Shown here: in pieces, positions 6,887 to 43,146 of the stretch
Layout: each line of letters opens with the position of its first letter
Position numbering within the stretch: the first letter of the stretch is position 1
Origin: Halieaceae bacterium
GTDB lineage: Bacteria; Pseudomonadota; Gammaproteobacteria; Pseudomonadales; Halieaceae
DNA length: 64,000 nt
Reading direction: 5' to 3'
Assembly (NCBI GenBank): GCA_902631395.1
Contig: CACOYM010000001.1
Location: forward strand, 186,001-250,000
The notes under the pieces: generated by a model
What the model was told of the DNA's origin: nothing
The model's database searches: none
What the model saw: the letters and a program-made list of their open reading frames with translations, nothing else
Made by a program: the position numbers and the translations under genes

Positions 6887-7417
6887 ATGAAAAAGGTTCT
6901 CGTGGTTCTCGGGCAGTTCAGTGATCAGGATATTGACTGGCTAATCGGGGCGGGAGAGCGGCGTCCGGTGAAAAGCGAGGAGTTGCTGGTCGATGAAGGG
7001 CAGCCCATAGATAGCCTCTACATCATCCTTGCCGGTAAATTTGTGGTGCATAGCCAGGGTGCGAAGGTCGCGGATTTGGGATCAGGAGAAATTGTTGGCG
7101 AGCTGTCCTATCTGGATTCGCGCCCCCCGAACGCCAGCGTGATCGCCACAGAGGATTCATTTGTCTACGCCGTGCGTCGGGATCGCCTGCAATCTAAGCT
7201 AAGGATTGATACCGGATTTGCGTCGCGATTTTATCGAGCTCTTGGCCTTTTATTGGCGGATAGACTTCGCACGACTACGAGTCAACTGGCGGTGGGGAAT
7301 TTCAGGGATCTAGACTCCGACAATGAGCAAGCCGGGGAGATTTCGCCCGAGATCATGGAAGCACTCGATTTGGCAGGCGCTCGATTTGATCGCATGCTCA
7401 AGGAGCTACAGCGTTAG
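6887..7417 (+). CDS. stand-alone cyclic-nucleotide-binding-fold protein
   Basis: 176 residues from ATG 6887, preceded by a G-rich ribosome site (GGGGGGT at 6877-6883); a TTG lies upstream at 6875. Residues ~10-120 form a Crp/cNMP-binding jelly roll (GQPIDSLYIILAGKFVV; cassette GEIVGELSYLDSRPPNAS at 67-84). There is no helix-turn-helix, so it is not a transcription factor of the Crp type. Aligning the cassette with E. coli Crp puts Asn82 where Crp has the phosphate-binding Arg82, so classical cAMP binding is doubtful. Proteins with this domain are known beside NHLM exporter operons in cyanobacteria. Here it is the first gene of the exporter operon, 83 bases ahead of the HlyD gene. A control role in export is inferred. 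Confidence 0.8.
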   Translation: MKKVLVVLGQFSDQDIDWLIGAGERRPVKSEELLVDEGQPIDSLYIILAGKFVVHSQGAKVADLGSGEIVGELSYLDSRPPNASVIATEDSFVYAVRRDRLQSKLRIDTGFASRFYRALGLLLADRLRTTTSQLAVGNFRDLDSDNEQAGEISPEIMEALDLAGARFDRMLKELQR

Positions 7418-7500
7418 CCTTTATTTTTCGTAAGTTCACCTAGATGTGTAAGTGTCCGATAGCCAGAAGGTATTAACGTAGACGGGAACCGGCTCATAGA

Positions 7501-8958
7501 ATGTTTCGGGAAAAAGCGTTAGAAAAATTAAGAAGCCCGGAGCAGCTTGACGAGCCGGTGCTAACGATTAGAAGGTTTGACCGGCTAGCTCTTCGAACGT
7601 CGGGCTACCTGCTTTTGTTCTTCTGCATATGGGGATTTTTTGGTGGAATCCCAGAGCCTGGAACCGGGCAGGGTATCCTGATTACTCCCAACACTGTCGT
7701 TCCTGTTCAGGCCCCTTCGGAGGGGCAGATCATGACCTGGCGCGTCAAAGTCGGTGACTTGGTGAAGCAGGACGATGTGATCGCGGTTTTGGGGCAGCCA
7801 GATACCGAGCGAACTATTGAGGTGGCAGAGGCGCGCTTGAGGGAGGTCAGGCATAGGAATAGTGAACTCACATCTATGCGTGAGATCAGTGTTCAAGCTC
7901 AGTTGAACTCTCTGGAAAGAAAACGGCGCAACTTAGGCGCTCGGGTTCAGTATCTTCAGTCGTTTATTTTGGAGACCCGGGCCGTGGTTGATGAGATGAA
8001 CGTGAACAATGAAATCTTGCTGGAGATGCGGCGCAATAACCTCGGGGAGGCGCGCGTCGCCGCTGCGGAGTTATCCGAGGCTTGGTTAGAACGCCAGCAG
8101 GCTTATCGACGCCTCAGGGCCGAAAATCTCATATCGGAAGAATCAGTGATTCAGGTCCAGAACAACTATGACGACAGTTTGATCAATCTGAGGAGTCTGG
8201 AGCTGCAGACTAAGCAAACGGATCTTGCAGCGGTAGAGCTACAAGAGGCTTATGCATTGGCCAAGAATCAGATATCCGGTAAGCAGAACCTGCTGGCGGA
8301 GCTTGAGTTGCAGCTGGGAGAGCTCGATAAAGTGGAGGCCAGCATAAACAAGTTAAAGCAAGAGGCGGCCCTGCGGGACCATAATGAAGTTAGTAACTTG
8401 GAACGAGAGCTAGCGGTGGCAGAACGGAAATTAGCAGAGGAGTTAATTGTTCGCGCTGGTCAGGGCGGGCGAATTCTTGAGTTAACGGCAGCGGAAGGTA
8501 GCGTTGTATCGACTGGTCAGAGAGTCGCTCAATTAGATACTCGTCTCGACGACGACGATTTGTTGGTGCTTGCCTACTTTACCCCCGAAGTTGGGAAGGC
8601 TCTTTACCCAGGGATGGCGGTGCGGGTTGCACCTGATACGGTGCCGCAAAGGCAATTTGGGACTATTGTAGGAACATTGGTTGCCGTGACGGATTTTCCA
8701 GTCACGACGGAGGCAGTGGCGAGTTATGTTGGTAACTCTGCGGTAGCTCAGAAATTGACTTCGCGAGGCCATGAGATTCAAGCCACCATTAGTATGAATA
8801 CTAGCCCAGCAACAGCCACCGGTTACGAGTGGACCTCTGAATTGGGGCCTGCGATCATGATTACAGCAGGTACGACCGCGTCCGTAAACGTTACTCTGGA
8901 ACGGCGTGCGCCTTTCTCCTATATCATGCCAGTCTTGAGAGAATGGAGCGGCCTGTAG
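7501..8958 (+). CDS. NHLM-type HlyD family secretion adaptor 1
   Basis: 485 residues. The N-terminus (MFREKALEKLRSPEQLDEP) is the signature opening of HlyD-like adaptors of the NHLM bacteriocin export family. One membrane helix lies at residues 36-52, followed by a periplasmic barrel-sandwich half (GQIMTWRVKVGDLVKQDD), a long coiled coil (about 100-300), the second half-domain (GGRILELTAAEGSVV) and a beta-barrel. It links an inner-membrane ABC transporter to an outer-membrane channel. It overlaps the next gene by 16 bases. Its C-terminal half is clearly paralogous to the second adaptor at 14225-15841: both end in an IMPVLREW / VIPILRGW motif and share the VGN block before it. Confidence 0.9.
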   Translation: MFREKALEKLRSPEQLDEPVLTIRRFDRLALRTSGYLLLFFCIWGFFGGIPEPGTGQGILITPNTVVPVQAPSEGQIMTWRVKVGDLVKQDDVIAVLGQPDTERTIEVAEARLREVRHRNSELTSMREISVQAQLNSLERKRRNLGARVQYLQSFILETRAVVDEMNVNNEILLEMRRNNLGEARVAAAELSEAWLERQQAYRRLRAENLISEESVIQVQNNYDDSLINLRSLELQTKQTDLAAVELQEAYALAKNQISGKQNLLAELELQLGELDKVEASINKLKQEAALRDHNEVSNLERELAVAERKLAEELIVRAGQGGRILELTAAEGSVVSTGQRVAQLDTRLDDDDLLVLAYFTPEVGKALYPGMAVRVAPDTVPQRQFGTIVGTLVAVTDFPVTTEAVASYVGNSAVAQKLTSRGHEIQATISMNTSPATATGYEWTSELGPAIMITAGTTASVNVTLERRAPFSYIMPVLREWSGL

Positions 8959-11315
8959 AGAGGAGGATGCTTACTCTAGCCCGCAATATTTGGCGGGTTT
9001 GGAGTTCTACGACGGATTGGATCTACCTTGAGTGCCTTGGCAAATACCAGGACTTACAAAAGCGCTACGGAAGTAAAAACCGCACCCTAATTGGTCAAGA
9101 AAGCGACCAGCGTCTGAAAGGTGTTGTCCCATCACCGCATGTCAAAACCCCATTACTCCTGCAACTTGAGGCCACCGAATGCGGTGCAGCCGCGCTAGGC
9201 ATTATCCTTGAACATCATGGTCGCGTTGTCCCGCTATCCGAGTTGAGGGTCGAATGCGGTGTCTCAAGAGACGGCAGCAAAGCGTCCAACATTCTGCGCG
9301 CAGCCCGTCATTACCATCTGCAGTGCAAGGGTTTTAAGGAGAGCTTTGAATCTGCGGTCGCACTTCAGACTCCTTACATTGTTTTTTGGAACTTCAATCA
9401 TTTTCTTGTCGTGGAGGGATTCGATCTTGAGAACCGACTCGTTTTCCTTAATGACCCCGCCCACGGCCACAGAAAAATCACCCTGACAGAATTCGATGAG
9501 AGTTTCACAGGGGTCACTCTGTTGTTCGAACCTTCGGGAGAATTCGTTTCCGGAGGGGAGAAGCCAGAACTTTTCGATGCTATCGCGCGTCGACTGGAAA
9601 AGGCTCACGACGCTATTCGTTACTGTTTGTATGCGGGACTGATTCTCACTATACCGGGGTTGGTGATACCGGCGTTTACGCAGGTTTATCTTGATTTTGT
9701 TTTGGGGGAGTTCAGGCAGGACTGGTTGAAACCTCTGAGTTTGGCCATGGCCCTGACGATTGCGATCAAGATTGTTGCGGAAGCCCTCAAGTATCGATAT
9801 TTACGACGACTTAAAATCCATTTATCAGTATCTATGTCAGCTGAGTTTTTTTGGCATCTTTTAAAACTGCCCATGGGGTTCTACTCACAACGATACAGTG
9901 GGGAGATTGCAGCCAGACAGGAACTCAATGACAACCTGGCTGATATCTTGTCGGGGCGGCTTGCAGATACCGCCATTGATTTGATTATGATGAGTTTCTA
10001 CGCCCTTCTCATGATGTATTACAACTTTTTTCTAACGATTATCGGTCTGCTCTTTGCCATGGGAAATTTCATGGCACTCAAATTTTTCAGTCAGCGTCGC
10101 GTGGAGGCAAACACCCGACTGCGTCAGGATTTTGGAAAGGTGGCGGCAGATACTATTGCGGCGTTGCAGTCGATGGAGACCATTAAGGCGGCTGGACAGG
10201 AGTCAACTTTCTTCTCGAAATGGTCGGGACGCTACTCAAAAGCCGCGAACAGCATGCAAGAGCTGCAGCTTGCCACCCAGAGCCTGTCAGTGCTCCCAAC
10301 TTTGTTCTCCACTATGACCACTATTTTTATTTATGTGATCGGTGGAATTTCTGTCATTCGTGGAGATATGACTGTCGGCACACTGGTGGCATTCACAGCG
10401 TTGATGGCCGCTTTTCAGGAACCTATCAAGAATCTTGTATCGCTTGGTGGAGAGATTCAGGAGCTTGATGGAGATCTAAAAAGACTGGATGACGTTTTGT
10501 TGGCGGAGCCTGATAGCGAGGCGATAAATCTGGGCAATGAAACTGGGAATGACCGAGCAGATCAGACCGCAAAGCTCTCGGGTGAGGTCCGGCTTCAAGG
10601 TATAAGTTTCGGTTACAACCCCTTAGATGCACCCCTGCTAGAAGATGTGACTATTGATATTCCAGCTGGATCACGAGTTGCTTTTGTCGGAGGAAGTGGT
10701 TCAGGAAAATCAACACTCGCCTATCTGGTCTGCGGTTTGTTAAAGCCCTGGCAGGGCGGTGTCTTGTTTGATGGGAGGCCGCGGGGAGAAATCGCTAAAG
10801 CGTTGATGACCCGTTCTTGCGCGCTGGTTAGCCAGGAGATAGCGCTGTTCGAGGGAACAGTCCGTCAAAATCTAACGCTTTGGGATGACACAATCCCTGA
10901 TGAAATTTTGCTCAGATCGCTTGAGGATGCGGCAATACTTGATGTTGTGTTGAGTTTGCCCGGTGGGTTAGATGGCCATCTTTTGGAGGGTGGGGTGAAT
11001 TTGAGTGGTGGCCAACGGCAACGACTAGAGATTGCGCGGGCCTTAATTCAGAATCCAGCTGTATTGATATTCGACGAGGCGACCAGTGCTCTAGATACGG
11101 AAACGGAGCGAGTCGTCGACGAGCGGTTAAAAATGAGGGGCTGCACCTGCATTTTAGTGGCACATCGCCTGAGCACAATCCGTGATTGCGACGAGATCAT
11201 AGTGCTTGAAAGAGGCAAGATCGTTGAGCGAGGGAACCATGAGCAATTATGGCAACTTCAAGGCTTCTATGCCGAGCTATTGAGAGCTGGAGATGACCTT
11301 GGCGATGAGGGTTAA
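8943..11315 (+). CDS. NHLM-type peptidase-containing ABC transporter (C39-TMD-NBD)
   Basis: 790 residues. The C39 bacteriocin-processing peptidase domain spans about 65-195 with catalytic Cys80 (ATECGAA), His153 (FNHFLVV) and Asp171 (LNDPAHG), all present. A membrane domain follows (about 215-480), then an ATPase with Walker A GGSGSGKST (~582-590), signature LSGGQRQR (~686), Walker B LIFDEATSALD and switch VAHRLST. Such proteins cut the leader of a peptide after a double-Gly-type site and export the core. The complete catalytic set argues for an active protease. The start overlaps the adaptor by 16 bases; an alternative ATG at 8967 directly abuts AGGAGG. The N-terminal ~60 residues before the peptidase are unusually long. 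Confidence 0.92.
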   Translation: MERPVERRMLTLARNIWRVWSSTTDWIYLECLGKYQDLQKRYGSKNRTLIGQESDQRLKGVVPSPHVKTPLLLQLEATECGAAALGIILEHHGRVVPLSELRVECGVSRDGSKASNILRAARHYHLQCKGFKESFESAVALQTPYIVFWNFNHFLVVEGFDLENRLVFLNDPAHGHRKITLTEFDESFTGVTLLFEPSGEFVSGGEKPELFDAIARRLEKAHDAIRYCLYAGLILTIPGLVIPAFTQVYLDFVLGEFRQDWLKPLSLAMALTIAIKIVAEALKYRYLRRLKIHLSVSMSAEFFWHLLKLPMGFYSQRYSGEIAARQELNDNLADILSGRLADTAIDLIMMSFYALLMMYYNFFLTIIGLLFAMGNFMALKFFSQRRVEANTRLRQDFGKVAADTIAALQSMETIKAAGQESTFFSKWSGRYSKAANSMQELQLATQSLSVLPTLFSTMTTIFIYVIGGISVIRGDMTVGTLVAFTALMAAFQEPIKNLVSLGGEIQELDGDLKRLDDVLLAEPDSEAINLGNETGNDRADQTAKLSGEVRLQGISFGYNPLDAPLLEDVTIDIPAGSRVAFVGGSGSGKSTLAYLVCGLLKPWQGGVLFDGRPRGEIAKALMTRSCALVSQEIALFEGTVRQNLTLWDDTIPDEILLRSLEDAAILDVVLSLPGGLDGHLLEGGVNLSGGQRQRLEIARALIQNPAVLIFDEATSALDTETERVVDERLKMRGCTCILVAHRLSTIRDCDEIIVLERGKIVERGNHEQLWQLQGFYAELLRAGDDLGDEG

Positions 11316-11318
11316 CTG

Positions 11319-14228
11319 GTGACCGATACAGGTGCACTGGCGAAATTGGGAGGTGAAATCCACTCGTACTCCGGTAACAGCGCTATTAGTTTTTTGAACG
11401 GCACACACTTGTGGGTGGTTCGTTCAGGTGCGATAGAACTCGTCAGTGCAAACCTCGATGGAGCCACAGTTTTGGGACACACCACGCCTCTTTTTAGAGT
11501 GCCGGTGGGTGGGCCTATATTAGAAATGGCGCCCTCACGGACGTCGCAGGGCCTATTGGGCGTGGCGTCCGGCGGTGAGGTGGTAATCGAAAAGATCCCT
11601 CTAACAGCATTTGAAGATGCCACAGTATTGCAGTCTAGATGGGCTTCGCTATTTGACGAGTGGTCCAGAGATGTCGCCAAGGTCTTGATAGCGGGCAAAG
11701 ACATGCCCAGCTCAGTAAGTCGACTGGATCAATCAGGATCCATCACAATATTTGAAAATGACGTTATCGCGCCGGATCCAAACGAGACGATGATGTTATT
11801 CGTTCGATCGGGTCAACTCAGCCTAGTGAGTAACCGTGATTTAATACTGCGTGAAGGTGAGGCGCTTTTGTTGCCCCTGGACGCTTGGCTGGAGGTTTGC
11901 TCGGATAGAGCGGAAGTTGATTTCACGCCGCTGTCCGATGCCACTGATCAAAAAGAGCTGATGGATGCTTTGATAACTCTCCAGCGACTTTTTGGAGGGT
12001 ATTTATTCTTATTGGAAGAGAGGAGAACCGCCGAAGAAAGCGAGATGTATCAGCGGAGCTCAGAACAAATTCGCATCAAATCTGAGAGGGCTCTGTCAAA
12101 TCTGGCCAACATACTTAACCCTCGAGAACGCTTTTCTGCAAGAGAAACCGACTTGCTTACCGCAGTGTCGATTGTCGGAGAGGCGTTAGGGATTGACATA
12201 AAGGCTCCATCCGCCTCTGAGGACTTTCTGCGCGTTGCGGATCCGCTGGATGCAATCGCCAGAGCCTCTCGTATTCGATCGAGGATGGTGTTGCTCGGGC
12301 ACGATTGGGAAAGTCGCGATACTGGCCCTTTGATTGCTTATCTGGAAGAAGATGGCGAGCGGGTACCAGTAGCGCTTTTGCCAACTGCTCAGTCGTATGA
12401 GTTTGTGCATCCGCGGCGGCTGCAGAGAGAACCTTTGACGGACGAGATCAGGACCGTAATGTGCCCGGATGCCTATTCATTGTATCGCATCCTTCCAGAT
12501 CAGATTGATGGTGTGCTGGATCTTTTAAAGTTCACCGCGCACGGCAGACTTTCCGATGTGTTGTTTATTATCTCGGTGGGTGGGGCCGCAACGATACTGG
12601 GAATGGTAGTGCCCAAAGCGACCGGTACATTAGTGGACTCAGCGATTCCCTATTCTGACTTCGCTCTCCTTTGGCAGCTGGCTCTTGTGCTATTTGCAGC
12701 AGGCTTGGCGCAGATAATTTTCATCTGGCTTCAAATGATGACAATAGTTCGGGCAGGCATGCTGTCGGAGATAGACGCACAATCCGCTATGTGGGATCGC
12801 ATACTTAAATTCAAACCCACGTTCTTTAGAAGATTCTCAAGTGGCGATCTACAAGCCCGAGCCAATGCAGTCAGCGAAATCAGTCGTGAGCTTAGCGGTG
12901 CTGCTCTGAAACCATTGGTTTCAGGGGTATTGGCCGTTCTAAATCTTGGACTCCTCGCCTATTACAGTGCGGAGCTGGCGCAACTTGCCGTGATTATCGG
13001 GGTGGTCGTTTTTTCGATAACTTTTGTTACGGGTTATTACATGAGGGGCCTGTCTTGGAGCCTTCACGATCTCGACGGCGCCTTTAAAGGGCTGGTCATC
13101 CAAATGGTTGGCGCCGTATCAAAGCTTCGCGTTGCTGGCGCTGAGCAAAGAGCGTTTAATCATTGGGTCGAGAATTACACTGAGCAGCTCCGCCTAAAGT
13201 TGGCTGTCCAGCGGCTTCAAGATTTCATCACTGTTTTTAATAGCGTTTTAATACCAATAGCCTCGATGTTGCTTTTTTGGCAGTCGGTAGAGCTGGTGAT
13301 AGGTAACCCAACGGGCGCTCAAAAGGCATTGTCAACTGGAGATTTCATCGCCTTCAATGCAGCGTTCATGCTGTATTTGAAGGGGTGGTCAGATGTTAGC
13401 AACACCATTGTCAGTGTGTTGGACGCAGTGGTAAAAGGACGGCGAATTCAGCCGCTGCTGGATGGGCGGCCGGAAGTGCCCTTGGATGCTGCTGATCCTG
13501 GGAGATTGAGAGGCCTGATTGCCTTGGAAAATGTCTCATTCAGATATGCAGATGATGGTCCTCTAACGCTTGAAAACATTTCTTGTGAGATACGTCCCGG
13601 AGAGTTCGTGGCGTTCGTGGGACCTTCTGGCTCGGGTAAATCAACCATACTGAGGCTGCTCCTCGGTTTTGAGGAGTGTGAGCAAGGTCGGATAGCGTAC
13701 GACGGTCAGGATTTGGCTGGGTTGGATGTTCTCGCGGTCCGTCGGCAAATCGGCACTGTGCTGCAGCACGGACGATTAAATACGGGCAGTGTTTTCGAGA
13801 ATATCTCGAACAATTCAAAAATTTCCCATGCAGAAGCGTGGGAAGCTATTGCTGACGCTGGCATGACCTCAGATTTGGAAAATATGCCGATGGGGTTGCA
13901 CACAATGGTGGCTGAGGGTGGTGCCAACTTGTCTGGTGGTCAGCGTCAGCGACTCCTGATTGCGAGAGCGTTAGCTACTCGGCCCAAGATTGTTTTTTTT
14001 GATGAAGCGACCAGCGCGCTAGACAATAAAACTCAGTCGGTCGTCTCTTCAGCACTCTCACGCAGAAAGGTCACTCGTGTGGTAATAGCCCACAGACTGA
14101 GCACGATAGAGGGCGCGGATAAAATCTATGTGCTCAATAGCGGAAGACTTGTCCAGTCGGGAAGCTTCAGAGAGCTCTCTGAAAGTGATGGTTTCTTCAA
14201 AAATTTAGTGATGAGGCAGCTTGTGTGA
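11319..14228 (+). CDS. NHLM-type ABC transporter without peptidase domain
   Basis: 969 residues, starting at GTG 11319 only three bases after the previous stop. The first ~400 residues are a non-peptidase N-terminal extension typical of the second ABC protein of NHLM systems. It has two short beta-rich, cNMP/cupin-like segments (LWVVRSGAIELV, LFVRSGQLSLVS) and a helical region. The membrane domain follows (~405-690), then the ATPase: Walker A GPSGSGKST (~768), signature LSGGQRQR (~870), Walker B VFFDEATSALD (~891), switch IAHRLST. Probably an export ATPase working with the peptidase ABC protein, as homodimers or a heterodimer. It overlaps the next gene by four bases. Confidence 0.9.
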   Translation: MTDTGALAKLGGEIHSYSGNSAISFLNGTHLWVVRSGAIELVSANLDGATVLGHTTPLFRVPVGGPILEMAPSRTSQGLLGVASGGEVVIEKIPLTAFEDATVLQSRWASLFDEWSRDVAKVLIAGKDMPSSVSRLDQSGSITIFENDVIAPDPNETMMLFVRSGQLSLVSNRDLILREGEALLLPLDAWLEVCSDRAEVDFTPLSDATDQKELMDALITLQRLFGGYLFLLEERRTAEESEMYQRSSEQIRIKSERALSNLANILNPRERFSARETDLLTAVSIVGEALGIDIKAPSASEDFLRVADPLDAIARASRIRSRMVLLGHDWESRDTGPLIAYLEEDGERVPVALLPTAQSYEFVHPRRLQREPLTDEIRTVMCPDAYSLYRILPDQIDGVLDLLKFTAHGRLSDVLFIISVGGAATILGMVVPKATGTLVDSAIPYSDFALLWQLALVLFAAGLAQIIFIWLQMMTIVRAGMLSEIDAQSAMWDRILKFKPTFFRRFSSGDLQARANAVSEISRELSGAALKPLVSGVLAVLNLGLLAYYSAELAQLAVIIGVVVFSITFVTGYYMRGLSWSLHDLDGAFKGLVIQMVGAVSKLRVAGAEQRAFNHWVENYTEQLRLKLAVQRLQDFITVFNSVLIPIASMLLFWQSVELVIGNPTGAQKALSTGDFIAFNAAFMLYLKGWSDVSNTIVSVLDAVVKGRRIQPLLDGRPEVPLDAADPGRLRGLIALENVSFRYADDGPLTLENISCEIRPGEFVAFVGPSGSGKSTILRLLLGFEECEQGRIAYDGQDLAGLDVLAVRRQIGTVLQHGRLNTGSVFENISNNSKISHAEAWEAIADAGMTSDLENMPMGLHTMVAEGGANLSGGQRQRLLIARALATRPKIVFFDEATSALDNKTQSVVSSALSRRKVTRVVIAHRLSTIEGADKIYVLNSGRLVQSGSFRELSESDGFFKNLVMRQLV

Positions 14229-15841
14229 AAGAGCGCGGTCCGGATTTGCTTAAGAGATTGCGGGCAAATGTGGTGACGTTGCGAGCACATCTTGGGGCGG
14301 CAGCTAGGCCGCACTTAAATCAAGTGGAGTTGGGAGTCGCGGTTCTGCAAAGGCGTTACGCGGAATTGCGTGAGTTTTTAAAAGAAGACATTGAGCGCCC
14401 CGTCGAGGCGCAACGTCCAGAGGATATTCACGAAACGCTCAGGGTGGTCTATGCCCGAAATTGGCTCCCGCTCGTCGCCTTGGCAGTGGTCACATGTCTA
14501 ATACTGCTCTATCTCGTTTTTGGGAAAATACCGATTACGAGTAAGGGTAACGCAATGTTTCTCACTAGAGGGACTGTTGTACCCCTCCAATCAATCGCTA
14601 TGGGTCAACTAGATACCTGGCATGTCAGCGTCGGTGACTTCGTTGAAAAGGGGCAGCTACTAGCGACTCTTGGTCAGCCATTGAGAAGCAAAATTCTTGA
14701 ACAACAGCAGGATCGGCTTGAAGAGCTGTCAGGGCGCGCGGTGGCGCTACAGAACCTGGAAATCAATTTTCATGGGTTGGAGGCCGAGGCAATTAATCAA
14801 AAAAAGCGCGTTCTTGAGGGGCGGATAAGTCTCCTCGAACGGCAGATTGAAGAGGCCAGATTGTTGGCAGAGCAAAACAATGCTCAAAAGCTATCGGTGT
14901 TGCAAAAAAATGAGGTGGACGTTTCTTTAATGGTTGAACTCGCCAAAGAGAGAGTTAGCGACGCCAATGAACGATTGGAGCAGACCCAATCGCTGCAGAG
15001 AGATCAGCTAAAAACAGTTGATGAGGTCATCTGGGCGGCTACCGCGTTGGCAGAGCAGCGGTCCCAGCTCCTCGCTCTGGAACACAGGTTGACGCAATTT
15101 AAATTGAGGAGATTTGAGGCGTTGAGCGAATATTCGTCAGCCTTGGATCAGATTAACGAAAACGAGGTAAACCTCGAGTCTCTGAAAATTCAGTACGAGG
15201 ATCTCAATAACGGGTTAATAGCAATTCGGCAGAGACAGGCCGAGAGCGATTATGGGCGAGATCTGGAGGTCGCTGATACCCAGAGGATGGTCACCAATCT
15301 CGAGAGGCAGGTCACGGAGCAACGAGAAATCAGAAGCGAACATGACGGCCGTATTGTCGAGCTGTCGGTGAGCGAAGGGCAGGTAATCTCGAAAGGGTTT
15401 CGGTTAGGGACGATAGACACAACAACTGATGGCGCAGAATTGGAGGCAGTCGTCTATTTCAAGCTGGATGACGGTAAAAAGATTCAACCCGGTATGAGGA
15501 TCCGATTAAACCCAGCAACTGTTCAACGAGAGCGGTTCGGTAGCGTGATTGCCGAGGTGACCGAAGTATCACCATATCCCGTAACCGCCTCTGGTGCCGC
15601 CAAAGTGGTCGGTAATGTGAGTGTCGCGGCTAATCTTACTCAGGGCAATCACCAGATCGAGGTCTTTGCTCGATTGTTAAAGGATGAGGATGCACACTCT
15701 GGTTATCAATGGGATCGGTCTAATGGCCCTGATCTTGAGATCACGTCAGGAACAGTGGGATCTGCCTTGGTCGATATCAGAACCCGTCCGCCGATCACAT
15801 TTGTTATCCCGATATTGAGAGGCTGGGATGGCGTTTGGTAG
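14225..15841 (+). CDS. NHLM-type HlyD family secretion adaptor 2
   Basis: 538 residues from GTG 14225, overlapping the ABC gene's stop (GTGA). It has a cytoplasmic N-terminus of ~75 residues, one membrane helix (LVALAVVTCLILLYLVFG), a barrel-sandwich half (GQLDTWHVSVGDFVEKGQ), a long coiled coil (~155-375), the second half (GRIVELSVSEGQVI) and a beta-barrel. It is homologous to adaptor 1 over the C-terminal ~180 residues, so the operon carries two diverged adaptors, whereas NHLM systems usually have one. It overlaps the outer-membrane factor gene by 14 bases. Each adaptor could serve its own ABC protein, or both could build one mixed hexamer. Confidence 0.88.
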   Translation: MKERGPDLLKRLRANVVTLRAHLGAAARPHLNQVELGVAVLQRRYAELREFLKEDIERPVEAQRPEDIHETLRVVYARNWLPLVALAVVTCLILLYLVFGKIPITSKGNAMFLTRGTVVPLQSIAMGQLDTWHVSVGDFVEKGQLLATLGQPLRSKILEQQQDRLEELSGRAVALQNLEINFHGLEAEAINQKKRVLEGRISLLERQIEEARLLAEQNNAQKLSVLQKNEVDVSLMVELAKERVSDANERLEQTQSLQRDQLKTVDEVIWAATALAEQRSQLLALEHRLTQFKLRRFEALSEYSSALDQINENEVNLESLKIQYEDLNNGLIAIRQRQAESDYGRDLEVADTQRMVTNLERQVTEQREIRSEHDGRIVELSVSEGQVISKGFRLGTIDTTTDGAELEAVVYFKLDDGKKIQPGMRIRLNPATVQRERFGSVIAEVTEVSPYPVTASGAAKVVGNVSVAANLTQGNHQIEVFARLLKDEDAHSGYQWDRSNGPDLEITSGTVGSALVDIRTRPPITFVIPILRGWDGVW

Positions 15842-17459
15842 GCATCTATTTATTGTGCTGCTGTTATTGCAGGCGTGTGCTAGTAATAAATACCTCACCG
15901 AGGAATACGAGACTGCGCTCACCAGAGCGGAGTCGTTTGACGCGAGCGCAGTACTGGAGAGTGAGGTTGTAGAGCTTCAGTCGGTCCCGTTGGCCCTTCC
16001 AGAGGTCATCCTCGCCAGAGCTGAGGAGGTGGTTAATCAGGAAGCGGTATTAGATTCGAGGCCCCTGCAGTTATCTGAGGTCAGACGCTACGCGTTAGAA
16101 AATAATCTCGGAATAGAAATTGACCTCTTTGATCCACAAATTGCGGAGCAGGGCTATTTAGTCGAGAAAGCAAAATTTGAAGCCATATTGACCGCGCAGG
16201 TGAGACAGACGAAAAACTGGGACATGAATGATGAAGTAATCGAATCAACATTCGCGGAGCCCTCAATTGTGATTCCAGTCCCGACAGGCGCGGTGCTGAG
16301 CGTGGGTGTCCCCTTCAGTGAGACGAGAATGCCTGCCCCTGACAACATGGCGGAAATGGTTGGCATTAATAAAACGGCACAGCTAGGGGTATCGCTGGTG
16401 CAGCCAGTGTTGAGAAATGCTGGGACGAAAATTAATTTGGCATCAATAGAAACTGCTGGTCTTCTGATGCGACAAACGGATTCTCTAACAAAGCTAAGAG
16501 TGATAAGTACTCTTGCTGGAGCCGAGAGAGCTTACTGGCGATATTACGCCGCTTATCAGCTCCTACAGGTGCTGTACCGTCAATACGAGTTGGCGTTGGA
16601 GCAACGGGCTGTGGCCGAGCGTCTGGTGGAGGAGGGCGTCAGGACAAGAGTTGAATTGACCAGAGCCGAGTCTGGTGTTGCTTTACAGTTCACAAGGGTA
16701 ATCGTTGCCGAGACAAGTCGCAGGCGAGCCGAAAGAGCACTGAAACGGTTTATTAATCTCCCCGACCTGGACGTGGATACGGAAGCTACGATTCTCCCTA
16801 TGACCCCTACAGCCCCTCAAGGGTTGGACTTTGACCGAGGCCGACTAGTTTCAATGGCTTACTCCAATCGACAGGAGTTGCTCCAAAATGAGATGCAGTT
16901 GGAGATCGATCGAATCACGATCGACGTTGATAGAAACCAGACTCTCCCGAAACTCGATTTGACATTCCAATATGCTTATTCGGGTGCGGCGCCTGAGTCA
17001 AAAGCAGTCTGGGAAATGATTTTTGATCGAGAATTGAATGGTTTGGCGGCGGGCGTCTCATTTGAAATGCCGCTCCTAGGAAATCGATCAGCCAAAGCAA
17101 AACTCCGGCAATCATTGCTTCAGCGGTCACAAACTATGGCAACTAGAAGACTACTGGAGCAGGCTGTGCGAGAGGAAGTGCACAACGCAGCTGATGCGGT
17201 GGAGCAATCCTGGCAGCAGATTCTGTCGAATCGACTTGCTATTTCATTGGCGGAGAAAACTTACGAGGAAGAAAAGCAACAATTTGCTCTGGGCGTGAGA
17301 ACCAGCACAGATGTGCTTATCTCATTGAACAGTCTGAGTGATGCGCGTGTGACGCAGATCGGAGCATTTCTTGCCTATCAGAATGCCATGATTGATCTGG
17401 CGTTTGCCACGGGCACAGTAATGGGCAACGGAGATATTAGTTGGGCCGGTGACGAGTGA
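15828..17459 (+). CDS. TolC-like outer-membrane efflux lipoprotein
   Basis: 543 residues. A lipoprotein signal (LLLLQAC, lipidated Cys17) is followed by two repeats of the outer-membrane-factor type (long amphipathic helices broken by beta strands), e.g. LRVISTLAGAERAYWRYYAAYQ and the second-repeat block AVREEVHNAADAV. It should form a trimeric channel-tunnel completing a path from cytoplasm to exterior for the ABC/HlyD parts. It is the last gene of the tight cluster, starting inside the second adaptor gene. Having its own outer-membrane factor suggests the system does not depend on a housekeeping TolC. Confidence 0.88.
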   Translation: MAFGRHLFIVLLLLQACASNKYLTEEYETALTRAESFDASAVLESEVVELQSVPLALPEVILARAEEVVNQEAVLDSRPLQLSEVRRYALENNLGIEIDLFDPQIAEQGYLVEKAKFEAILTAQVRQTKNWDMNDEVIESTFAEPSIVIPVPTGAVLSVGVPFSETRMPAPDNMAEMVGINKTAQLGVSLVQPVLRNAGTKINLASIETAGLLMRQTDSLTKLRVISTLAGAERAYWRYYAAYQLLQVLYRQYELALEQRAVAERLVEEGVRTRVELTRAESGVALQFTRVIVAETSRRRAERALKRFINLPDLDVDTEATILPMTPTAPQGLDFDRGRLVSMAYSNRQELLQNEMQLEIDRITIDVDRNQTLPKLDLTFQYAYSGAAPESKAVWEMIFDRELNGLAAGVSFEMPLLGNRSAKAKLRQSLLQRSQTMATRRLLEQAVREEVHNAADAVEQSWQQILSNRLAISLAEKTYEEEKQQFALGVRTSTDVLISLNSLSDARVTQIGAFLAYQNAMIDLAFATGTVMGNGDISWAGDE

Positions 17460-17615
17460 ACCTATGACGGGCTAGACTGCTTGGGCTTACTAAAGAGATG
17501 GTAGTACGTGGCCAAAGTTTGACATGTTCCCCGCACGCTTAAGTATAGGCTGAGCGAAATTGCCGGTCTCACCAGTCCCTAGCTTGGCCCCCGCAATAAC
17601 GTGAATGGTGGATAT

Positions 17616-18215
17616 ATGAGTAAGCAAAATAACAAGTTATTTGAGCGACTTCTGAATGCAGTTGGCTTGGATAAGGGAGAGCTTGAACATCAGGTGTGGC
17701 GAGAGTTTGGGTGTATCCGCGCTGTTTTGGTAATGGATTCCACAGGATTTACACGTATTACTAATTCTCACGGCATTGTGCACTATCTGAGCGTGTTGGC
17801 GAGGGTACGGGAAGAGCTAATCCCTTTGTTCGAGTCTCATGGTAGCCTTCGCACTCGCGTGGAGGCTGACAATATTTATGCCGAATTCGAGACTGTCCAA
17901 TCAGCCCAGGTAGCAGCCGTCGAGGCTAACAAACTGATCGATCGCCAACCATTTGATTTGGCAGATTCGGAAAAATTTGGACTTTGCATTGGTATAGGCT
18001 TCGGAGAATTGCTTGACAGTGGTCACGAGGGGTTATTTGGACCAGAAATGAACCTTGCGTCAAAGCTGGGCGAGGACACTGCCGATTCAGGTGAAATCCT
18101 GGTTACTGAGGCTGCCTGGACTGAGCTTCCAAAGGATACTCAAAAGTTGTTTCGTCGTTGCTTTATAGAAATATCAGGAGCCAATATTTCCTATTACGCG
18201 ATGCAGGCGCTCTGA
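17616..18215 (+). CDS. stand-alone class III nucleotidyl cyclase domain protein
   Basis: 199 residues from ATG 17616 (GGTGG ribosome site five bases upstream; a GTG at 17601 is less likely). The protein is essentially one cyclase homology domain: metal ligands Asp41 (VLVMDSTGFT) and Asp85 (VEADNIYAEF), then GPEMNLASKL, where Asn146 is the transition-state residue but Lys150 stands where class III cyclases normally have Arg. No membrane or sensor domain. It lies 156 bases after the outer-membrane-factor gene on the same strand, convergent with a CHASE2 gene lacking a cyclase domain. It could make cAMP (or another cyclic nucleotide) for the cNMP-binding-fold protein at the operon head. Activity is uncertain because of Lys150. 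Confidence 0.8.
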   Translation: MSKQNNKLFERLLNAVGLDKGELEHQVWREFGCIRAVLVMDSTGFTRITNSHGIVHYLSVLARVREELIPLFESHGSLRTRVEADNIYAEFETVQSAQVAAVEANKLIDRQPFDLADSEKFGLCIGIGFGELLDSGHEGLFGPEMNLASKLGEDTADSGEILVTEAAWTELPKDTQKLFRRCFIEISGANISYYAMQAL

Positions 18216-18348: not shown

Positions 18349-20010
18349 TCAACCACTATCTCTGCGAGTAAATGATGTGGCGTAATGATCGAGACATATG
18401 CTAGCCAATCGCGCCATTAAAAGACGCCATTCAGTCTGCTCGTCGTCTGTTTCAGAGGCCCTGTGCGTCTCGCCAATTAATTCATATCCCTCCTTTGAAT
18501 CTTCGGAACTATCTTGAAAGGTTGTCCATGCATCCAGATCGGAAAAAATGAATAAATAGCGGGACTCTACGAGAACGTCACTGAGAATATTGCTGTCTTG
18601 AACTAATTGATCGACTTCGACTACATTTTTAAGCCCGAAGTAGGACTCTAGTCGACCAAGTACGACTTCGTGATCGTCGCTCAGCTGAACAACTCGCACA
18701 ATGCTCGAAGGATCGGGGTTCGGGCCAAAGAGACCGATGCCTTTTCTAGAGTTCCGCTCAGCGTATTGGTGGATCTTCACTATAGAAAACAGGATTACTC
18801 CGGCCGCTGCTGGGGCAGATAAGTCTACGACCACAGAAAAGTAACTGACGGATATGATCGTTACGGCAATCGCTGCGAATTCTAGAACGATAAAAAAAAT
18901 ATCTGCGACGTCTTCATCTAGCCCCCGTCCAAATAGCAGTGAAAGGAAGAAAACGAAGGCACATGAAATCGCAGCATTAAGCCAAATATCTATCGGAGTT
19001 AGGCCGGTGCCGCTAATTAGGTCATCAATCATCGTAGCGATGATTTCATTGTCGTCCGTTGTCGGGCCCAACGAAGTTCCTTTGAGAACGGCAATGCCCG
19101 GAGCAGAAGCTCCGATCACAAAATGTTTCCCCTGTATTGAAGTTTGCGGCTGGCTCGCTTCCTCACCCCGGACGAGGTTTCGGTAGAGGTCAGAAAAGGG
19201 AACTCTGTGATACCCCTTGTCTGATCTGTTGCGCCAATTGATTAAGAATGCGTTTTGATCAGCGGTGTTCTTGGCTGTCTGTGGTGACGATTCTTTTGCT
19301 CGACCAGCAATAGTCGGTAGCAGGTATCCGCTCTCGCTCCAGTATTCTCTGGCGCGCCTTACCAGGCCATCATCATCTATCACTAAATTATTAAGCGCCA
19401 GTTTGGACAGCGCGCAGGGGAAGAAAGGCAAAAGGAGCGCTATTTTTTTGTCGTCGGCATCCGCAGTCTCTAGCGCCCCCGGAATCTCAGATAGGCGACC
19501 TCCGCTCAACTCGTCGTTTTGCTGGGCAAGCCTCGTCATTGAGAAGGTCGTTCTTTTAAGTTCACAAGCGACAGCGTTGAGTAGTTCGTCAGCTTCGGGA
19601 TTGTTGATGTCCTTATCGCTGAGCATAAGGTTTAGTGCAACACTCGCGGCCCCCTGGTCCTCCAGCGCAAGGAGAAGCTCAGCGACAACGTCTCTTGGCC
19701 ATGGCCAACGCCCATATTCAGCCGCTAAGTCGGCAAGTGACCTCTCGTCAATGTCAATGATCACTATGTCTTTTGAAGCGGGTGGTGCAGCAAGCCGATA
19801 CTTAATTGCTAAGTCTAGACTGCCCCCGTCGTAGATCAGACCGTCTTCCGACTTTAAAGCGAGTTTGTACGAATAGGCGACAATCGCAAGTGATAGCGCG
19901 AAGCTGACGTAGAGGTAAAAGCGATTTCTTACTCTCCGCGCCATCAAGCCGTAAGCTGCTAGTAAACCTACCAGCAGCAATAACGGCTTTAGAAAAAGTC
20001 GGTTATTCAA
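18349..20010 (-). CDS. CHASE2-domain membrane sensor without recognisable output domain
   Basis: 553 residues. Two N-terminal hydrophobic segments (7-24, 30-50) precede an extracytoplasmic CHASE2 domain (~60-320) with the hallmark VIIDIDERSLADLA...GRWPWPRDV. Three or four membrane helices follow (~335-415), then a ~135-residue cytoplasmic tail. In most CHASE2 proteins this layout leads to a cyclase, kinase or GGDEF domain. The tail here (IVRVVQLSDDHEVVLGRLESYFG onward) matches nothing I recognise. The convergent gene 133 bases away encodes a free cyclase domain, suggesting a sensor and cyclase split into two proteins. Last gene of a minus-strand operon after the M48 protease (16-base gap). 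Confidence 0.82.
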   Translation of the reverse strand: MNNRLFLKPLLLLVGLLAAYGLMARRVRNRFYLYVSFALSLAIVAYSYKLALKSEDGLIYDGGSLDLAIKYRLAAPPASKDIVIIDIDERSLADLAAEYGRWPWPRDVVAELLLALEDQGAASVALNLMLSDKDINNPEADELLNAVACELKRTTFSMTRLAQQNDELSGGRLSEIPGALETADADDKKIALLLPFFPCALSKLALNNLVIDDDGLVRRAREYWSESGYLLPTIAGRAKESSPQTAKNTADQNAFLINWRNRSDKGYHRVPFSDLYRNLVRGEEASQPQTSIQGKHFVIGASAPGIAVLKGTSLGPTTDDNEIIATMIDDLISGTGLTPIDIWLNAAISCAFVFFLSLLFGRGLDEDVADIFFIVLEFAAIAVTIISVSYFSVVVDLSAPAAAGVILFSIVKIHQYAERNSRKGIGLFGPNPDPSSIVRVVQLSDDHEVVLGRLESYFGLKNVVEVDQLVQDSNILSDVLVESRYLFIFSDLDAWTTFQDSSEDSKEGYELIGETHRASETDDEQTEWRLLMARLASICLDHYATSFTRRDSG

Positions 20011-20026
20011 TACGCAACCGCATTAA

Positions 20027-20950
20027 TCACTGACTTTGATAAGCTCCGATTCGGGCACTGTTCTGTGAGGGGACAGCTGCGCTTTCCAGCTCAGCTGTGA
20101 AGCTTTCCACGACACTGTTTACCCTGTCCTCGACGGTTGGGTGCGTTTGAAAGAGGAAGTTCACGTCGTCGCCACCCTCGGATGCGCCGGCAATCTTTTC
20201 TAATACACCGATCAGCGCTGTGCTGTCATATCCTGCATTAGCGGACAGCAAAACAGCGTCGCCATCTGCTTCGTACTCCCCGCCTTTGTCGATGCCAGAG
20301 TTGACCATCTTCTTAAAAATTCCAGACATTGCATCGTATGCCGCGTTTGCGAGCGCACTGTCTGATTCGGTATTAGCTACCACCAGATCAGTGGCGCCGG
20401 CGATTAGCTTCTGTTGCTTTATGAGCTCCCAATGATGCTCCTTAGCAACGTGAGCGATTTCATGGGCAAGGACTGCCGCCAATTCATCCTCGGTCTCTAA
20501 CAAATCAAACAAGCCTGCAGTAATCAGGATTTTTCCGCCTGGAATCGCAAACGCATTGATAGAGGGTGTATCTAAGATACCAAATGCCCAAGGTATGTCC
20601 GGCCGAGAGGTTCGTGTGGTGAGACGATTTCCCACTGCATTGACGTAGCTTTGGGCTAGCGCGTTGTCAAGCAATGGCGAGGCCCCTAGATACATAGCCG
20701 CGATAGCATCCCCTGCTGCAATTTCATCCTCAACAGATTGTGAGGAGGTGGCCGTGGATACGAGGCCGACAGCCCCGCCAATATTTGTTGCAGTTTTATC
20801 AGCTTCTTTTTCGTCTTCTTTCTGTTTCGTTGGCATCGTAAGGGGGTTCTGTTTGGTCAACTCGCCCAGTTGAGCCAACGATGAGGGCGCTACTACCGAA
20901 AACGCAAGCGCGATCACTACGCTACCGAAAGCCTTAATCAATGAATCCAT
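20027..20950 (-). CDS. periplasmic M48 family metalloprotease
   Basis: 307 residues. Signal peptide (residues 1-27, cleavage near SLAQ), a short charged linker, then an M48 catalytic domain with HEIAH (163-167) and the third zinc ligand Glu225 in EYEAD. The block NAFAIPGGKILITAGLFDLL just before the zinc site is characteristic of BepA/LoiP/Oma1-like M48 enzymes. Such proteases act in outer-membrane or envelope quality control. It sits between an SH3b lipoprotein gene and the CHASE2 gene on the same strand, which suggests a shared envelope function. It has no TPR extension, so it is shorter than BepA. Confidence 0.88.
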   Translation of the reverse strand: MDSLIKAFGSVVIALAFSVVAPSSLAQLGELTKQNPLTMPTKQKEDEKEADKTATNIGGAVGLVSTATSSQSVEDEIAAGDAIAAMYLGASPLLDNALAQSYVNAVGNRLTTRTSRPDIPWAFGILDTPSINAFAIPGGKILITAGLFDLLETEDELAAVLAHEIAHVAKEHHWELIKQQKLIAGATDLVVANTESDSALANAAYDAMSGIFKKMVNSGIDKGGEYEADGDAVLLSANAGYDSTALIGVLEKIAGASEGGDDVNFLFQTHPTVEDRVNSVVESFTAELESAAVPSQNSARIGAYQSQ

Positions 20951-20989
20951 GTTTATCTCCCATGATTATTACGCGGTGCGATGCAGCGC

Positions 20990-21685
20990 TTAACCATTGC
21001 TATCAGTAATATTCCGTTCTTCTTGATCATCAAAGAAGTCGTCTCCCAGCGAATCTCCCGAGTTCTGGAGGGCGTTTAGCTCCTTGACCGCCTCAAAATC
21101 CGGGGTGCTGGTGACTACGTCTTCGCTTGTGAGTCCGCGTGCTCCCGTGCTCGCAACGGAGTTCCCACTGCCCATCCGACCTGAGAAAAATCCTGCTAAA
21201 ACACTTGAGCCATCGCCGTTATTCGGGATAGTGACGTCTGACATTTTTATCCAGCCTTCAGTCGGGCTTTGCGCGGCATACCAAATTCCATTCCGGCTAC
21301 CCACAGTGACAGTGGCACCCTTTTCGAGAGTCGCGACGGTATCGCCATTCGAGCTCGCCTCTGCGCGGATAGAGACTTTCTTGTTTACGGTTGCCGAGAT
21401 AAACGATGCGGGAGCCGGAGTCTCTTTGTTGTCGGATGACGCCTGTGGACTTTCCGATGATGTAACTGTCTCTGCATCCGGAGCAGAGGACGCTCCACTC
21501 TCAGGTTCTGTGGCTTGCGTAGCCGATGCAGATGCTGTGGAGGACGCGGCGGAAGAGTCTGCCTCGGTTGCCTGCGCTTCGCTAGCAGCAGTCGCTTTTT
21601 CAGTCTCGGCCGAGACTGGATCCTCATTTTGACTGCACCCTGCCAGTAACGTCGCAGACACGATCACGAACAGAATATTTCTCAT
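20990..21685 (-). CDS. SH3b-domain lipoprotein with low-complexity linker
   Basis: 231 residues from ATG 21685, which follows AAGGGGA; the frame is open to 21709. Lipobox LLAGC (Cys17), then an Ala/Ser/Glu/Thr-rich disordered linker (~20-105), then a bacterial SH3 domain (VNKKVSIRAEASSNGDTVATLEKG...WYAAQSPTEGWIKMSDVTI), which usually binds peptidoglycan or peptides. The acidic C-terminal tail is not recognised. First gene of the minus-strand set SH3b-M48-CHASE2. A role tethering or targeting the M48 protease at the cell wall is possible but is inference. Confidence 0.75.
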   Translation of the reverse strand: MRNILFVIVSATLLAGCSQNEDPVSAETEKATAASEAQATEADSSAASSTASASATQATEPESGASSAPDAETVTSSESPQASSDNKETPAPASFISATVNKKVSIRAEASSNGDTVATLEKGATVTVGSRNGIWYAAQSPTEGWIKMSDVTIPNNGDGSSVLAGFFSGRMGSGNSVASTGARGLTSEDVVTSTPDFEAVKELNALQNSGDSLGDDFFDDQEERNITDSNG

Positions 21686-21709
21686 ATTGATCCCCTTGTT
21701 AAGCGTCAC

Positions 21710-22745
21710 AACGACCTTAGCGTTTACTGCGTTGTGGCCGCGCTTCTGTCACCCGGTATCATTAGGTTAAGAGTACACCACCTGATGGCAGCACACCCCT
21801 TTTGACTCACATTACAGGAAAAAGACAGATCAGGCGAACTAGAGCCAGAAAGTGGCCGGTAGCTTGGTCTATCGATGCCCAGGCCAGCAGTATGGCCTGA
21901 ACGTTATTGCCATAAAAGCGCGCATCGAACGGTTGGTGCTCAGAATTTACGGCGGCGGCGCTGGTGACATTGGGTCTGCTCACTGATGAGGGCACACCTA
22001 CTGTAGCTGCCATGCAAACACGACAAGTATTGCAAGACTCAACATTGGAGTCGCCTTTGCCTGCGACCTCCTCGCTCATGCCCAAGCTAACACCTAACTA
22101 ACTAGACGTTAAACATCAAAATTATAAAGGCAGCCCCATCCCTCTGGGGCTGGTATGTCGTCAGGTGGCGGGGTAGGGTGGAATGCCACAAATCTATTAA
22201 TAAATGACTTTGCATCGAAGCGAGCGCTGGGGAGTGCCGGGGAACTGTTGACCAAGCTACCCCTAAAGCAGGCGTTGAGGGGGTTCGCAGAGGGCTCTTT
22301 CCGCAATCCTGCAACGCGTGAACTCGAGTCAGCACCTAAGTCCGCTGGAGCTAGTCTAAGCATTACCGAGCCGGTTACATTGTCATCATCGTAGTTCTGT
22401 TGGTTTACCGAGCACACAGTCAATATCAAAGCGACAGGCACAACATGCAAGACGATTCACCAACAGAACTTACGTAAGGTGGGGTAGCTTCATTCTTTTC
22501 TGTGTCTGTTATTTTCTGAGTCTTCACAACATGCCCGAGTCCCTCCTTTTCAACTTAGTCCTGCGGCATATCTAAGTCTCACATTTGCTCTGACATGACC
22601 CGTAACATTTATATAGCCCTTTGGTAAGATCAAGGCATGGCGCTGGTTGAGATGATAGGTACGGCGCTAGAGTTGGTGGTGAGGGTTTGTTAACACAAAC
22701 GCGTGGCTGCTCTGCCGACATTCACGCTGTCGATCGGAAAAACGT
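21710..22745. other. long stretch with no convincing gene
   Basis: About 1 kb. It contains only weak frames: a minus-strand frame 21807-22085 (92 codons), a minus-strand frame 22109-22450 (113 codons, starting MHVVPVALILTVC, a poor lipoprotein-like start) and a plus-strand frame 22155-22394. None has a recognisable domain or a good ribosome site, and two overlap one another on opposite strands. Promoters for the SH3b operon (leftward) and the FAD oxidoreductase (rightward) should lie here. I cannot place them. Confidence 0.5.
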
Positions 22746-42820: not shown

Positions 42821-43146
42821 GAATTATCGTCAGTTGCCCCGTTGGTTTGGCGTTATTCTGACAATGATTAGTCGATGAGATTGGTTTGGGTATCCCGTTG
42901 GCATCAAATTGAAAAGCGTGCTAGCGGCGCAACTAACTCGGGTCAAACGGCGCCGGCATCGCGCGCAAAATGACTGACAGCGCCAAGGTGAGTGAGATGG
43001 CCGCCAAGCATGGCTTTACGTTTGCGTCTGCATCTGAATAAGGTCAACAAGCTTGGGATGCCGCACTATTGTTAGCACCAAACAATCCCCCGACGGCTTG
43101 GGTAGCTCTAGGAAATGCATAGTTTTCAGAGGTCTTTGAGGAGCAG
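42821..43146. other. intergenic stretch before tRNA-Leu
   Basis: No gene of recognisable kind. A 23-codon frame at 42970-43041 (ATG...TAA) reads MTDSAKVSEMAAKHGFTFAS, faintly reminiscent of a Nif11-type leader but too short and without a Gly-Gly end. Confidence 0.4.

Follow-up and report, generated by a model that had tools for sequence, protein, structure and literature searches.

We analysed a 64,000-nucleotide stretch of Halieaceae DNA (hereafter the window, i.e. positions 186001-250000 of a 271-kb contig) and focused on seven genes located at 6887-18215, most of which compose a putative peptide export operon. Our best reading of this operon is a double-adaptor exporter for dispersed heptapeptides: judging from sequence, it probably encodes one dedicated export machine for peptides that carry a Nif11 leader and are encoded at dispersed sites (estimated probability of about 0.68).

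All seven genes were confirmed on the + strand (Table 1). Domains were identified with Pfam, and the curated cut-offs are those of the NCBIfam models TIGR03794, TIGR03796 and TIGR03797. The scores against these curated NHLM models are far beyond chance; since all three models are exceeded, the HlyD one twice, the operon is predicted to encode an NHLM/NHLP exporter, made of two HlyD adaptors (HlyD1 and HlyD2), a C39 peptidase fused to an ATP-binding cassette (ABC) transporter (ABC1), a second ABC protein (ABC2) and a TolC-like outer membrane factor (OMF). The Gln, Cys, His and Asp regions, which we take to form the C39 catalytic motif, are all present in ABC1, and the ATPases of ABC1 and ABC2 both carry the Walker A, signature, Walker B and His motifs, to which we assign their usual roles by assumption. 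ABC1 is the only C39 match in its own genome at E<=0.001.

A first-pass annotation of this DNA had proposed that the exporter is of NHLM type and processes leader peptides, that its adaptor is doubled and that it has a TolC-like gene of its own. The scores above the curated cut-offs and the intact C39 motifs are consistent with the first of these proposals, both HlyD genes exceed the TIGR03794 cut-off, and the TolC-like gene does lie within the operon. The tight run with overlaps of 4-16 bases that had also been described was recovered at three junctions (16 bases between HlyD1 and ABC1, 4 between ABC2 and HlyD2, 14 between HlyD2 and the OMF gene) and has to be corrected for ABC1 and ABC2, which are separated by a gap of 3 bases and do not overlap. 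The gene for a cyclic nucleotide-binding (CNB)-fold protein ends 83 bases ahead of HlyD1. Behind the OMF gene, a cyclase-like gene follows after 156 bases (ATG at 17616) or 141 bases (GTG at 17601); a consensus scan returned no terminator-like site in this gap, and across the whole window such sites were not more frequent than in shuffled sequences, so the cyclase-like gene may share a transcript with the operon. The two adaptors share only 29% identity across 474 positions and pair in the HlyD tree at 87/90, under the program's starred level, and a recent HlyD duplication was therefore rejected.

Table 1. Coordinates of the features discussed in the text (positions within the window)
Feature	Coordinates	Strand	Evidence or remark
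CNB-fold (cNMP-binding-like) protein, 176 aa, single domain	6887..7417	+	PF00027 E 2.4e-15
HlyD1 adaptor, 485 aa	7501..8958	+	TIGR03794 259 bits vs cut-off 156
ABC1 (C39 peptidase + permease + ATPase), 790 aa	8943..11315	+	TIGR03796 1007 bits vs cut-off 853
ABC2 (permease + ATPase), 969 aa, GTG start	11319..14228	+	TIGR03797 834 bits vs cut-off 709
HlyD2 adaptor, 538 aa	14225..15841	+	TIGR03794 294 bits vs cut-off 156
TolC-like outer membrane factor (OMF), 543 aa	15828..17459	+	PF02321 E 6e-35
Divergent relative of class III cyclases, considered a neighbour of the machine and not a component	17616..18215	+	PF00211 below cut-off
Fatty-acyl AMP ligase + carrier + condensation protein, 1217 aa	3012..6665	-	PF00501 E 1.6e-53, PF00668 E 6.5e-40
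Decayed Nif11-leader precursor remnant (fragment, in-frame stop)	42970..43065	+	82 bases from tRNA-Leu

The candidate cargo is a family of Nif11-leader precursors. TIGR03798 gave seven matches in the genome carrying the window, all seven over the 32.3-bit cut-off and spread over five contigs (C31, C17 with two, C22, C6 with two, and C10). Five of them are complete precursors of 80 residues each, consisting of a 73-residue leader ending in AGG, SGG or GGG and a seven-residue core (RSLGPPC, CHRDTGS, NARTGGS, RSSLKSC and GRSGGSS), i.e. Gly-Gly precedes a variable core in 5/7 matches. The C22 precursor is cut at 70 residues by the contig end, before the Gly-Gly site, and C6b, directly behind C6a, is a leader devoid of Gly-Gly on a 287-residue protein (L154:3805-4668) in which Pfam names only Nif11 and whose remainder looks cupin-like by eye. 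Over the ten pairs of complete precursors, leaders average 84% identity and cores 17%, the corresponding DNA values being 80% and 30%. Because dS is saturated in ten of the 15 leader pairs (C22 included) and dN/dS ranges from 0.01 to 0.15 in five, these sequences point to old copies with leaders under strong constraint. The decayed copy of Table 1 matches the C31 leader with 75% identity along 32 residues (E 6e-9) and displays 73-85% DNA identity to the five precursor cassettes; as it shares a contig with the exporter and with genus-syntenic genes, a binning error is unlikely to account for the family (the contamination estimate of the bin is 0.3%). Most of this candidate cargo lies beyond the window and was therefore not visible to the first-pass annotation.

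Among 46 genomes of the genus, a Nif11 match at E<=0.001 was obtained in this genome only (0/45 others). The NHLP precursor model TIGR03793 gave no match at E<=1 in the same genome, and NHLP cargo was rejected on this basis. Inspection by eye of the short open reading frames in the gaps between 1 and 26 kb of the window revealed no Nif11-like Gly-Gly leader, and none of 16 pattern matches in viral contigs was a phage-carried precursor. Two plasmids carry a Nif11 match (37%), and both also match HlyD2.

Linkage between exporter and precursors was then evaluated in a sample of 390 genomes of the order, both searches being taken to cover the same genomes, an assumption underlying the Fisher tests. 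ABC2 at E<=1e-150 was retrieved in 11/390 genomes, i.e. G000 (the own genome), G091, G112, G141, G173, G193, G202, G296, G333, G350 and G368. Nif11 matches over the cut-off occurred in G000, G091, G162, G202, G209, G230, G245, G270, G290, G323 and G333, so that four genomes share exporter and Nif11 (p 1e-4). No Gly-Gly follows the Nif11 domain in the other seven Nif11 genomes, nor in G052 and G152, where matches were below the cut-off. Gly-Gly Nif11 leaders are found in 4/390 genomes, and 4/4 of these have the exporter (p 3.5e-7, for a class that was set after seeing the matches).

Several observations weigh against the reading of these peptides as the cargo of the exporter. G091 and G202 are near-identical, which leaves about three independent lineages, and within the genus the presence of exporter and precursors in one species amounts to one event. 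The operon itself contains no Gly-Gly precursor, the linkage being one of co-occurrence, and 7/11 exporter genomes of the order are devoid of a Nif11 match over the cut-off; these seven presumably use other cargo. Seven-residue cores are short for the family, the average suffix being 23 (PMC2887384, Table 3), and the precursors of G333, G091 and G202 have cores much longer than seven residues. Moreover, with the genome at 88.8% completeness, a further exporter may be absent from the assembly, and Pfam named no maturase in 20 proteins of the precursor contigs, a genome-wide maturase search not having been made.

Regarding the surroundings of the precursor genes, Rfam contains no known RNA element matching the regions ahead of them. 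A 5' flank common to C31, C22, C6a and C10 holds a terminator-like hairpin followed by a T run before the start codon, and could be an attenuator or a small RNA. An element at 2188-2277 of the window is 72% identical to part of the C31 flank (L150 about 9851-9938). An IMES-1 RNA motif (133.5 bits) lies at L151:16337-16525 (G000:C17), ~2 kb from precursor C17b. Reprolysin-like metallopeptidase genes flank precursor C17a (L151:5086-7572 and L151:8653-10035), and another is located near the exporter (window 1133-1894).

In the mechanism that we propose, ABC1, probably together with ABC2, would recognise the common leader, cleave the precursor after Gly-Gly and send the core out of the cell by way of HlyD1/HlyD2 and the TolC-like channel. 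Having a leader in common would give scattered genes access to a single exporter, which would explain how the precursor genes can be dispersed. Leader recognition and Gly-Gly cleavage are indeed coupled to transport in peptidase ABC exporters, and one C39 domain, LahT150, cut many Nif11 and NHLP leaders (PMC6363468, PMC10986499). More tentatively, the two adaptors might assemble into one mixed ring or each work with a different ABC protein, and the CNB protein might couple a ligand outside the classical cyclic nucleotides to export. The heptapeptides could act as signals or as small antimicrobials. A fuller scenario, in which an exporter with two unlike adaptors secretes private, plain or lightly modified heptapeptides from dispersed same-leader units, the lineage altering its outside message by altering seven residues, while an alarmone-type ligand tunes it via a CNB protein that has lost cyclic-nucleotide binding, is speculative, and we regard it as rather doubtful when taken as a whole.

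The distribution of related exporters was assessed beyond the order: at the same threshold, ABC2 was found in 12/398 genomes of a phylum sample and 10/369 of a class sample, the own genome being counted each time. A scan of named genomes with ABC2 yielded one match only, to an unrelated ABC protein. A comparison set of 38 other exporter loci was assembled, including 33 genome loci (all other ABC2 matches, with their surroundings) and 5 plasmid loci. The latter came from 23 plasmid records matching HlyD2, of which six were examined and five kept, L088 being dropped as no NHLM ABC gene is annotated there. Profiles built up from the window proteins served to score each locus; 10/38 lie on contigs <14 kb, where flank genes may be missed. 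A CNB gene was detected in or near the exporter at 12/38 loci (8/33 genome loci and 4/5 plasmid loci, at 9.5 kb in L086), leaving out a further CNB gene located several kb off in L073. The recurrence of a cNMP-domain gene beside such exporters, anticipated by the first-pass annotation, is thus confirmed, and it extends to cyanobacterial group V (PMC3140520). A TolC-like gene is present at 7/38 loci, on the opposite strand in L071 and L087, and a second full HlyD at none, L058 having a 27-bit match ~8 kb off. The exporter is already known as a kind; its second full HlyD is unusual.

Two loci, both from genomes of the same class, reproduce the gene order of the window without the second HlyD, namely L133 (CNB-HlyD-ABC1-ABC2-DUF7005-OMF) and L137 (CNB-HlyD-ABC1-ABC2-OMF). 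The series CNB-HlyD-ABC1-ABC2 with a TolC-like gene also occurs on a cyanobacterial plasmid (L087). The window OMF is 39% identical to that of L133, and both window HlyDs group with L133, L137 and the five plasmid loci in the HlyD tree (100/99). Enzymes for ribosomally synthesised and post-translationally modified peptides (TfuA, LanC-like, radical SAM) adjoin other exporters of the NHLM kind, which speaks for the proposed reading. A search around G977 within the order returned three genomes only, one of them with the exporter. DUF7005 genes stand beside CNB-type exporters in three loci (L133:4148-5293, L087:12654-13877 and L089:12023-13228), whereas Pfam showed no such gene in the scanned part of the window operon. 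In L079 (about 10283-13689), ABC2 is disrupted by stops and frame changes.

The CNB protein resembles the family defined by TIGR03896, which calls for a score over 161 bits and two CNB domains: it scored 127.6 bits (E 6.4e-37), matching only positions 139-317 of 317, and has one domain. In the alignment, where CNB domains two and three of a PKG mark the canonical position of the phosphate-binding cassette, the expected Arg was found in 0/13 CNB proteins, the window protein having Pro instead; by eye, it is likewise missing from the first domains of four two-domain plasmid CNB proteins. The CNB domain of HetC, a published C39 exporter, bound ppGpp with a dissociation constant of about 59 uM; GTP and GDP also protected it, cAMP gave no significant protection, and cCMP was among the weaker ligands (PMC10986499). 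By analogy, the window protein may couple export to a ligand other than a classical cyclic nucleotide, a ppGpp-like one being a candidate, although this proposal is weaker than the exporter assignment. A Pycsar-like defence function was also considered and rejected, the PycTIR model matching only the CNB part (E 1.1e-13) and PycC giving E 0.011.

The cyclase-like protein remains below the PF00211 cut-off (16.2 bits vs 21.9), has no match in NCBIfam and matches PDB 3mr7 at E 1.4e-6, and is for these reasons classified, on its sequence, as a putative divergent relative of class III cyclases. Of the class III site residues, it retains both Asp and the Asn, with Arg at the base-contact Lys position and Lys at the transition-state Arg position, the roles of these five residues being those that we presume for the class. 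Matches at E<=1e-6 were obtained in 6/244 genomes of the order, own included. Of its three close relatives, G170 (44% identity) has sulfotransferase and TonB-receptor genes next to it, G075 (42%) genes for an esterase and a CNNM protein, and G124 (41%) a transposase gene; no exporter lies beside them within stretches of 20, 15.6 and 3.2 kb, the last being the whole G124 contig, and ABC2 was not retrieved from G170 at E<=1e-150 in the order sample.

The first-pass annotation had gone further and proposed that export is gated by a cyclic nucleotide made by the cyclase and bound by the CNB protein, and had named as one refutation that the cyclase and cNMP genes are not kept beside the exporter in relatives; this test turns out against the cyclase. 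The arrangement does invite the idea, as the two genes flank the exporter on the same strand with no terminator-like site in the gap, the cyclase-like protein retains the two Asp and the Asn, and an Arg two places before the canonical position in 5/13 CNB proteins, the window's included, might stand in for the missing one. L075 even has a CNB gene with a cyclase-like gene ~2.1 kb further, other genes lying between; this protein exceeds the PF00211 cut-off and is 25.5% identical to that of the window (44 bits at first match), and the cyclase profile was widened to include it before the count. L075 is nevertheless the only one of the 38 loci with such a gene, the closest cyclase kin have no exporter nearby, the canonical Arg is missing from 13/13 CNB proteins, and base-contact and transition-state residues are both replaced in the window protein. 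Since the cyclase does not travel with the exporter and the CNB protein lacks the canonical Arg, cyclic-nucleotide gating was rejected as the best reading and appears very improbable to us; the cyclase-like gene was judged to be a neighbour rather than a part of the machine.

Two further alternatives concern the cargo. The only biosynthetic gene adjoining the operon, divergent from it with 221 bases between, encodes the ligase-carrier-condensation protein of Table 1, which could put a fatty acid on a Nif11 or other peptide before export. Its ligase and condensation domains, its carrier motif LGLDSM and its HHxxxD motif fit such a role, and the gene has no DNA-level match in 45 other genomes of the genus. 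However, its carrier domain is below the Pfam cut-off, no such gene appears by name at the scanned exporter loci (ten proteins, six loci) and its link to the exporter is proximity alone; acylated cargo seems unlikely to us. Alternatively, the scattered Nif11 proteins could act inside the cell, leaving the exporter to other, unseen cargo. Nif11 proteins devoid of Gly-Gly in the seven order genomes lacking the exporter, cores of seven residues against the published average (PMC2887384) and the leader borne by the 287-residue protein all agree with this; yet the Gly-Gly kind tracks the exporter in 4/4 genomes, and a constrained leader followed by a core whose DNA identity (30%) resembles chance typifies precursors rather than a single-function protein, and we hold an intracellular role to be quite unlikely. 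Export of dispersed Nif11-leader peptides by the double-adaptor machine thus stays the favoured interpretation.

Among known systems, the NHLM/NHLP cassette (Haft 2010, PMC2887384) likewise comprises HlyD, C39-ABC and a second ABC protein and is tied to NHLP and Nif11 precursors with Gly-Gly leaders, whereas the window operon has two HlyD genes and an OMF, and its precursors do not adjoin it. Cyanobacterial bacteriocin group V (PMC3140520) combines a short C39-ABC, a second ABC protein, HlyD and a separate CAP_ED (CNB) protein with NHLP/N11P precursors; these are placed in cluster regions, unlike the dispersed ones described here, and its CAP_ED protein has two domains against one in the window, so that the operon departs from the group V definition on this point. 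Prochlorosins and synechococsins (PMC10783134) share Nif11 leaders, hypervariable cores, scattered genes and shared machinery; prochlorosin cores are modified by a LanM enzyme (ProcM), and the cores of the window genome are uniformly seven residues long. HetC of Nostoc PCC 7120, thought to export a signalling peptide, is a C39 exporter whose function requires its CNB domain (PMC10986499); there, the CNB domain is fused to the ABC protein and the source places no adaptor gene beside hetC, whereas the window CNB protein is separate.

Exporters of this kind, their CNB companion (group V, PMC3140520) and the scattering of Nif11 precursors (in prochlorosins) have therefore already been published. 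Searches of the open-licence literature brought up no account of a doubled adaptor, of cores that are all seven residues long or, for this order, of scattered precursors linked to a single exporter. An exporter without visible cargo is here joined to a concrete, synthesisable candidate, i.e. five heptapeptides with one leader, which opens cleavage, export and function to direct testing. The set also offers a compact system in which to address the role of dispersed, hypervariable Nif11 peptides, the function of prochlorosins being still called unknown (PMC10783134). Should both adaptors share one channel, this would be a structural question in itself.

The exporter region of this species looks accessory, because ABC2 over the cut-off was found only in the own genome among 58 searched (beside it, 36 congeneric genomes and 21 others from the order) and because 3.0-22.6 kb of the window matched the DNA of other genomes of the genus in short pieces only, up to about 100 bases long; any DNA match to the 20-kb query was obtained in 12/45 of these genomes. 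The DNA match to G034, a same-genus genome, starts at 22623, and six window genes (22.7-34.3 kb) are 82-91% identical, and a seventh 59%, to one G034 contig (L107/L108), partly rearranged. A short dispersed repeat with several copies in other genomes of the genus lies at the edge of this synteny (22575-22673). Between the cyclase-like gene and the repeat, the region 18349-21709 contains SH3-like, M48 peptidase and CHASE2 genes; this trio is also consecutive in G786 (L109; 39-47% identical), without the cyclase, where it adjoins CsgG-like and kinase-like genes.

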